This document shows positions 57,878 through 59,520 of a stretch of DNA of 64,000 bases, in pieces. Source of the stretch: an uncultured SAR116 cluster alpha proteobacterium. Lineage in GTDB: Bacteria > Pseudomonadota > Alphaproteobacteria > Puniceispirillales > Marisalimonadaceae. The translations under genes and the position numbers were made by a program. The notes below the pieces were generated by a model. The model saw nothing but the letters and a program-made list of their open reading frames with translations. It made no database searches and had not been told where the DNA came from. Every line of letters begins with the position of its first letter. Position 1 is the stretch's first letter. Location of the stretch: NCBI GenBank assembly GCA_902619805.1, contig CACNGC010000009.1:1-64000 (forward strand), given 5' to 3'.

Positions 57878-58075
57878 TCAATGTTGCGTGTTATTTTTTT
57901 TTAATAAATCTTCCATAACGACTTTTAATGACTCAAATAAATCAATTGCAATAACCTTTTCATCCTCAGTAAGAGACAAAAACTGTTCATTAAGTTGTTT
58001 CTTACCAGTACCTTTAGACTGTAATTTGATCCAAACAGGGTTTTGCTGTATTTCTTGAAGACTTTTATATTTCAA
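57878..58075 (-). CDS. Small helical protein, 65 residues
   Basis: I do not recognise this protein. It appears helical (SLTEDEKVIAIDLFESLKVV and EDLLKKNN) with no cysteine or membrane segment. TTG at 58075 is supported by AAGGA nine to ten bases upstream. It is divergent from the ferredoxin-cyclase-Rieske gene, with a 104-base spacer. A link between the two is possible but unproven. Confidence 0.58.
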   Translation of the reverse strand: MKYKSLQEIQQNPVWIKLQSKGTGKKQLNEQFLSLTEDEKVIAIDLFESLKVVMEDLLKKNNTQH

Positions 58076-58179
58076 AATAAATTCCTTAAGTATATTTAAT
58101 TAATTGGAAAAAATTTAATCAAAAAAGTTTTAAGTTTGGAAGTTTTTTTTCATTAGTTGATTCAATTTTTATTTTCATT

Positions 58180-59520
58180 ATGATTTTATTTATGAATGGT
58201 AACATATTTAAAATCGACTTAATACCAGACAATACTGAAATATCAATTTCAGAAGACGAAACTATTTTAACAGCGTCATTAAGAAATGACATACAACATC
58301 TTCATGCGTGTGGTGGTCTTGGAATGTGCTCTACTTGTAGAGTTGAAATTATAGAAGGAGAAAAGAATTTATCTCCAAAAACCAAGTCTGAGCAAAGTTT
58401 ATCTGAAAAACTAGAATTACCAAATAACATTCGATTAGCGTGTCAAACAAAAATTAAAGGCGATGTAAAGCTCAAAAGATTATTGCTTGACCAGAAAGAC
58501 ATGATTTTAGCCAATCAAATGACTAAGAATTCTGTTGGTTCAATTGGTAACACCAAAAAACTTGCACTCATGTTTGTAGATATAGTCGCATTTACACCTC
58601 TAAGTGAACAACTACCCTCTTATGACGTTATGTATATTCTAAATAGATACTTTGATGATATGGGAACAATAGTTAAAAAAAATGGTGGTGATATAAATAA
58701 TTTTATTGGAGATGCCTTTCTTGCAGCTTTTGGTATAGACGATAAACTTGATTCAGTTTATCGATGCACTCAAGCCGCTATAGAAATATTAGAAGATGTA
58801 GATAACAAGAAAAAAGTTTTTTTAGATAATTATAATATTGATTTTGATGTGAGAGTAGGTATTCATTATGGTGAAGCCATAGTAGGTATGCTTGGAAATG
58901 CTGGAAATCAGCGTTTAAGTATAATTGGCCAATCTGTTAATATAGCTAGTAGAGTCGAAACGGCTAACAAAGAAGCTGAAACAAGATTATTGATCTCAGA
59001 AGAGGCATTTAAAGAAATTGAAGATAGAGCTGAGGTTGAGGATTTTGTTAGAGTTAAATTAAAAGGCTCCTCTCAAAGATCTACGTTATATGAAATTTCA
59101 AAACTTAAAGGAAAGTCTTTAGTATCTCAAGATGATAAAATATTTGAATCGGGTATTTTTTGGAATAAAGTAATGCTATCTAAAGATTTAGATAATGGTG
59201 AAAAAAAGAAGATTAGTTATCAAGATGAAGAGATTTTAATTGTTAGAAATGATGATAATTTATCAGCATTTTCTAATTTATGCCCTCATATGAATTTACC
59301 ACTAGAAATGGGCCAGATAACAACAGATAATGAGTTCTTATGCCCATTCCACGATAGTAAATTTTGTTTAAGAACTGGTGCTGTAAAAAAATGGGTTACA
59401 ACAAGTGCAGACTGGATGCCAGATGAAGCAGTTGAACTCACTAAAGCCATTAAAGAAATACCATTAGATTTATTACCAATCATGGATAAAGACGGATATA
59501 TTTGGATAGGTAGTGAATAG
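58180..59520 (+). CDS. Ferredoxin-class III cyclase-Rieske fusion protein
   Basis: The 446-residue protein has three domains in order. Residues 1-100 are an adrenodoxin-type [2Fe-2S] ferredoxin with Cys44, Cys50, Cys53 and Cys88. Residues 125-300 are a class III nucleotide cyclase with metal Asp134 (MFVDIVAFT) and Asp178 (FIGDAFLAAFG), plus Asn254 and Arg258. Residues 325-446 are a Rieske [2Fe-2S] domain with CPH at 368-370 and CPFH at 388-391. No membrane segment is seen. Ferredoxin-cyclase fusions are known; the added Rieske domain is the odd part. The usual Lys and Asp/Thr that read the purine base look like Asn174 and Ser247, so cAMP or cGMP as product is open. Confidence 0.9.
   Translation: MILFMNGNIFKIDLIPDNTEISISEDETILTASLRNDIQHLHACGGLGMCSTCRVEIIEGEKNLSPKTKSEQSLSEKLELPNNIRLACQTKIKGDVKLKRLLLDQKDMILANQMTKNSVGSIGNTKKLALMFVDIVAFTPLSEQLPSYDVMYILNRYFDDMGTIVKKNGGDINNFIGDAFLAAFGIDDKLDSVYRCTQAAIEILEDVDNKKKVFLDNYNIDFDVRVGIHYGEAIVGMLGNAGNQRLSIIGQSVNIASRVETANKEAETRLLISEEAFKEIEDRAEVEDFVRVKLKGSSQRSTLYEISKLKGKSLVSQDDKIFESGIFWNKVMLSKDLDNGEKKKISYQDEEILIVRNDDNLSAFSNLCPHMNLPLEMGQITTDNEFLCPFHDSKFCLRTGAVKKWVTTSADWMPDEAVELTKAIKEIPLDLLPIMDKDGYIWIGSE

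Follow-up and report, generated by a model that had tools for sequence, protein, structure and literature searches.

The window, a 64,000-nucleotide stretch of the genome of an uncultured SAR116 cluster alphaproteobacterium, carries an intact, continuous open frame of 446 codons at positions 58180–59520 of its forward strand. The real start is probably the ATG of Met5 (position 58192), giving a protein of 442 amino acids, since upstream of residue 5 several orthologues carry Ile and a single one carries a stop codon (at residue 3); orthologues often have no start codon at residue 1. Within the genus, the context of the gene consists of a divergent block of DUF, cupin, DUF6974 and TPR genes and an NMT1-type ABC transporter. 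A small conserved ORF (65 amino acids, TTG start, positions 57878–58075, reverse strand) lies between the gene and the divergent DUF gene, and is also found at two loci (L167 and L168) from which the gene is missing.

The encoded protein comprises three domains, each detected by Pfam above its curated cut-off and without overlap: Fer2 (PF00111, 2.3e-12, residues 16–93), Guanylate_cyc (PF00211, 1.6e-22, residues 125–299) and Rieske (PF00355, 2.4e-17, residues 328–406). This confirms the fusion of ferredoxin, cyclase and Rieske domains, in that order, which the first-pass annotation had read from the frame, and upholds the assignment of the C-terminal region to the Rieske fold. The first domain (58192–58479, this and the following features on the forward strand) is a predicted [2Fe-2S] ferredoxin of the adrenodoxin/ISC-ferredoxin type, with all four Cys ligands (C44, C50, C53 and C88) in CX5CX2C...C spacing; a PDB sequence search gave as its closest solved structure an ISC ferredoxin, E. 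coli ferredoxin 1i7h. A linker (residues 101–124, 58480–58551), in which orthologues differ by few amino-acid changes, leads to a class III nucleotide cyclase domain (58552–59103, closest solved structure CyaB, 3r5g) with both metal-binding residues, Asp134 and Asp178, and the transition-state pair Asn254 and Arg258. The Rieske [2Fe-2S] domain (59158–59511) is of the dioxygenase-ferredoxin type, with a complete CxH ... CxxH pair (C368, H370, C388 and H391), and is closest among solved structures to monooxygenase and dioxygenase Rieske ferredoxins (8jng, 3gce and 4emj). These ferredoxins serve aromatic-ring dioxygenases and methanesulfonate monooxygenase; the Rieske domain has the same CxH-x17-CxxH spacing and matches them in sequence over the length of the domain but, unlike them, is fused to a cyclase. 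All of the ligand and catalytic residues named at first pass are in place; moreover, the Fer2 ligands and catalytic residues are invariant across all homologues compared, as are the Rieske ligands in all homologues with a complete Rieske domain. The AlphaFold2 model of the protein, made from a shallow alignment, is poor (mean pLDDT 43).

The gene was found in 19/40 genomes of the genus, the window genome included. Of the others, sixteen hold full-length matches, 86–98% identical, one of which is interrupted by a stop among the first codons, where the start is uncertain; the remaining two hold the gene in broken frames, and these frameshifted copies (L019:8001–9323 and L039) represent either sequencing error or real decay. 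Between orthologues, dN/dS was approximately 0.04–0.09 for Fer2, 0.02–0.03 for the cyclase, the lowest of the three, and 0.04–0.1 for Rieske, indicating that all three parts are maintained by selection. In a sister genome (G038), intact flanks enclose only remnants of the gene (L167:5880–6838), which match positions 58180–58305, 58957–58996 and 59454–59520 of the window, so that the gene has been lost there. It is therefore accessory, selected for in some lineages and dispensable in others.

Such an unusual architecture might, on that ground and no other, be put down to a chimeric gene call or to the misassembly of separate genes, an outcome that the first-pass annotation had named as fatal to its reading. 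This is refuted, and carries next to no probability: the identical frame recurs in independent single-cell genomes, the gene is present in a further 18 genomes of the genus, and homologues of some 40% identity extend over its whole length in other genera, which likewise disposes of chance. A case that does look chimeric is a contig of a Desulfocapsa metagenome-assembled genome (JAESPV010000054.1), the first 219 bp of which (L020:1–219) are 98% identical to window positions 58144–58362 and the rest of which is unrelated sequence.

Beyond the genus, full-length Fer2–cyclase–Rieske homologues share 37–46% identity with the window protein. The architecture occurs in a second SAR116 family, f3 (full length in seven genomes, and split over contigs in one more), in a genus of another order (g232), in families f182 and f264, and in Rhizobium etli 8C-3 and R. 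gallicum R602, which carry it on megaplasmids. It is nonetheless sparse, being detected, apart from the window genome, in just one of 385 sampled across the class, and in 5/297 genomes of the order to which another carrier, G751, belongs; viral contigs held no relative of the window protein. The window protein is thus a member of a rare but multi-lineage family. The first-pass annotation, which could name no protein with these three domains, was wrong in so far as uniqueness was implied, the architecture being spread over several alphaproteobacterial lineages; no paper on the three-domain architecture, or on the five-domain one described below, was found in the open-licence literature, where only membrane-anchored ferredoxin-cyclases turned up.

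In family f3 and genus g232 (L064–L070, L075 and L149) the same core is preceded by two CDGSH domains, giving the order CDGSH–CDGSH–Fer2–cyclase–Rieske (for example L120:7306–8844 and L123:7711–9222); this N-terminal mitoNEET-type pair is confirmed by Pfam zf-CDGSH in L064 and L075. Judged by their motifs, these proteins would assemble four [2Fe-2S] clusters, of three kinds, around a single cyclase. They share the Fer2–cyclase–Rieske core with the window protein at approximately 45% identity and form its sister group, differing from it in the two additional domains and in having Asn/Thr at the purine-reading sites. In two of the genomes (G104 and G391) the fusion protein holds the sole CDGSH domains found, while the window protein lacks both N-terminal CDGSH motifs and no CDGSH gene was found in the window genome (91% complete).

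Two groups of proteins share the ferredoxin–cyclase portion. Approximately 30 class IIIb cyclases have been described in which a cytochrome b-type membrane anchor, a predicted heme anchor, is followed by ferredoxin and then cyclase (eLife 2016, PMC4821796). In these six-transmembrane proteins, such as Rhodopseudomonas palustris Q132R4, Fer2 directly precedes the cyclase as it does in the window protein, catalytic residues are identical and homology over Fer2–cyclase is clear. The window protein differs in having no such anchor (the frame has 43 residues before the first ligand Cys, or 73 counted to the upstream stop), an extra C-terminal Rieske domain, another linker, and Asn/Ser where the anchored proteins have Lys/Thr; without anchor or Lys/Thr, and with Rieske added, it falls outside the published cluster as a new variant of ferredoxin-linked cyclases. 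The second group consists of soluble Fer2-cyclases of approximately 310 amino acids, exemplified by WP_245126431.1 from a Hymenobacter volaticus plasmid (38% identity over residues 4–307 of the window protein) and by proteins from genomes of family f191 and from G201, which have the Fer2–linker–cyclase core in common with the window protein but neither Rieske nor CDGSH. A linker signature, (K/R)RL-LD-xxD, formed in the window protein by R100 together with residues 101–124, is present in nearly all soluble Fer2-cyclases and never in membrane-anchored ones.

A tree built on the Fer2–cyclase part separated membrane-anchored from soluble Fer2-cyclases with full support. Soluble Fer2-cyclases without Rieske branch outside the Rieske-bearing proteins, save that one Rieske-less soluble protein (L076) clusters with the latter and the base of this cluster is not resolved; a single Rieske-bearing clade was not rejected (AU p 0.18). 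The data are therefore compatible with one origin of the Rieske-bearing family from soluble Fer2-cyclases. CDGSH-bearing proteins formed one clade, sister to the window genus, and the simplest history is one gain of Rieske by a soluble Fer2-cyclase, followed either by gain of CDGSH in one branch or by its loss in the window genus.

The purine-reading residues vary across the family. Membrane-anchored relatives have Lys/Thr in 31/31 cases, while Rieske-bearing proteins have Lys/Thr (f264 and G1047), Asn/Thr (f3, g232 and Rhizobium) or Leu/Thr (G751 and G909). The notion that Lys is replaced in every Rieske-bearing cyclase is incorrect, given that G936, G1078 and G1047 retain Lys/Thr. In the window genus the residues are Asn/Ser, and the residue table bears out the non-standard Asn174 and Ser247 noted at first pass. 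Substrate choice is not readable from these residues; the product would presumably be cAMP or cGMP, and the non-canonical pair casts doubt on the product and even on activity. Taken together with the occasional broken copies, the replacement of Lys by Asn could point to a degenerate, inactive cyclase acting as a scaffold, but this is very improbable, as neither the metal-binding Asp pair nor the Asn/Arg pair varies in any homologue compared, and dN/dS is lowest in the cyclase domain. The natural series of pairs (Lys/Thr, Asn/Thr, Asn/Ser, Leu/Thr and Asp/Ala) offers a means of probing substrate choice.

Gene context differs among lineages, and for this reason no neighbour was taken as a partner and inference of a partner from neighbouring genes was rejected. 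Among the lineages compared there was no conserved neighbour pointing to a redox partner, no reductase or oxygenase gene conserved beside the cyclase gene, and no iron-uptake or ISC gene conserved adjacent to it; in the window's own genome region no oxygenase gene was seen beside it. In genus g232 the cyclase gene is tightly flanked by guaB and guaA, so named by reading of the sequences, apparently in one operon (L123:6241–10787 and L151:1423–4901), a location that is suggestive of a link to GTP metabolism but may be incidental. Two f3 genomes have CO dehydrogenase genes near the cyclase gene.

These contexts bear on two other ways in which the iron–sulfur domains might be used. In the first, Fer2 alone would regulate the cyclase, and Rieske would be an electron-transfer partner of the Fer2 cluster or of some other acceptor, making the protein in part an electron carrier. 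The affinity of the Rieske domain with oxygenase ferredoxins, and the existence of Rieske-less soluble Fer2-cyclases branching outside, are in keeping with this, as is the position of the R. etli 8C-3 gene just downstream, on the same strand, of a catechol/benzoate degradation cluster with benzoate dioxygenase (L104:345–9386). However, neither R. gallicum nor SAR116 shows this context, and with no partner reductase or oxygenase gene conserved nearby we consider this account unlikely. In the second, the protein would sense iron or Fe-S supply, cluster loss or damage (by iron starvation, NO or superoxide) rather than reversible redox change switching the cyclase. A single protein with such chemically different [2Fe-2S] folds as Fer2, Rieske and CDGSH would be well placed to report on cluster assembly, and the nearest Fer2 relative of solved structure is an ISC ferredoxin; but conserved iron-uptake or ISC neighbours are lacking, and the Fur-type gene of f3 loci lies approximately 6 kb downstream, with a peptide transporter in between. 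Supply sensing is thus a possible reading, albeit one on the doubtful side.

No effector of the window cyclase was found, although the window genome encodes proteins with cyclic-nucleotide-binding (CNB) domains. Those inspected in the window genus are stand-alone domains and not CRP-like regulators. At two SAR116 loci (L136:671–1827 and L130:610–1773) stand-alone CNB proteins adjoin metallo-beta-lactamase-fold hydrolase-like proteins, possibly as effector/hydrolase pairs.

Class III cyclases are dimers with active sites at the interface, and their N-terminal regulators act via the stretch directly preceding the catalytic domain. The presence of a cyclase and two different iron–sulfur modules in one gene suggests that redox or iron state is read into a second messenger, and the window protein is probably a cytosolic homodimeric class III cyclase, the output of which would be regulated by the redox state or occupancy of its [2Fe-2S] clusters. 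The earlier proposal that two [2Fe-2S] centres may set cyclase activity fits the invariant ligands, dN/dS of approximately 0.1 or less in each domain, the conserved Fer2–cyclase linker and the widespread occurrence of the Fer2–cyclase fusion. The Fer2 cluster would sit directly before the catalytic domain, joined to it by the conserved short linker; its reduction, oxidation or loss would change the linker, and the dimeric active site would open or close. The Rieske cluster might act as a second input at a different potential or exchange electrons with Fer2, the two CDGSH clusters of relatives might add further input, and the cyclic nucleotide would then act via the stand-alone CNB proteins. 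Conservation of the fusion in several alphaproteobacterial lineages, a soluble Fer2-cyclase parent group, widespread membrane-anchored Fer2-cyclases, the CDGSH domains added in relatives and the CNB proteins of the genome also argue for this explanation; the accessory nature of the gene (19/40 genomes, decayed in one), the lack of a conserved redox-partner neighbour, the non-canonical purine-reading residues and the poor AlphaFold2 model argue against it.

More tentatively, and falling somewhat short of an even chance, the protein may be a multi-threshold redox/Fe-S sensor cyclase that integrates [2Fe-2S] centres of differing chemistry, Fer2 and Rieske (with CDGSH in relatives), and turns the redox state of the cell directly into a cyclic nucleotide signal, possibly with altered nucleotide specificity.

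The best-known bacterial Fe-S sensors are the transcription factors FNR, IscR, SoxR and NsrR. A cyclase with two predicted [2Fe-2S] clusters, and four in its relatives, would let a second messenger report directly on electron-transfer or iron status; the natural series from Fer2 alone, through addition of Rieske, to addition of CDGSH would allow the contribution of each cluster to be measured.
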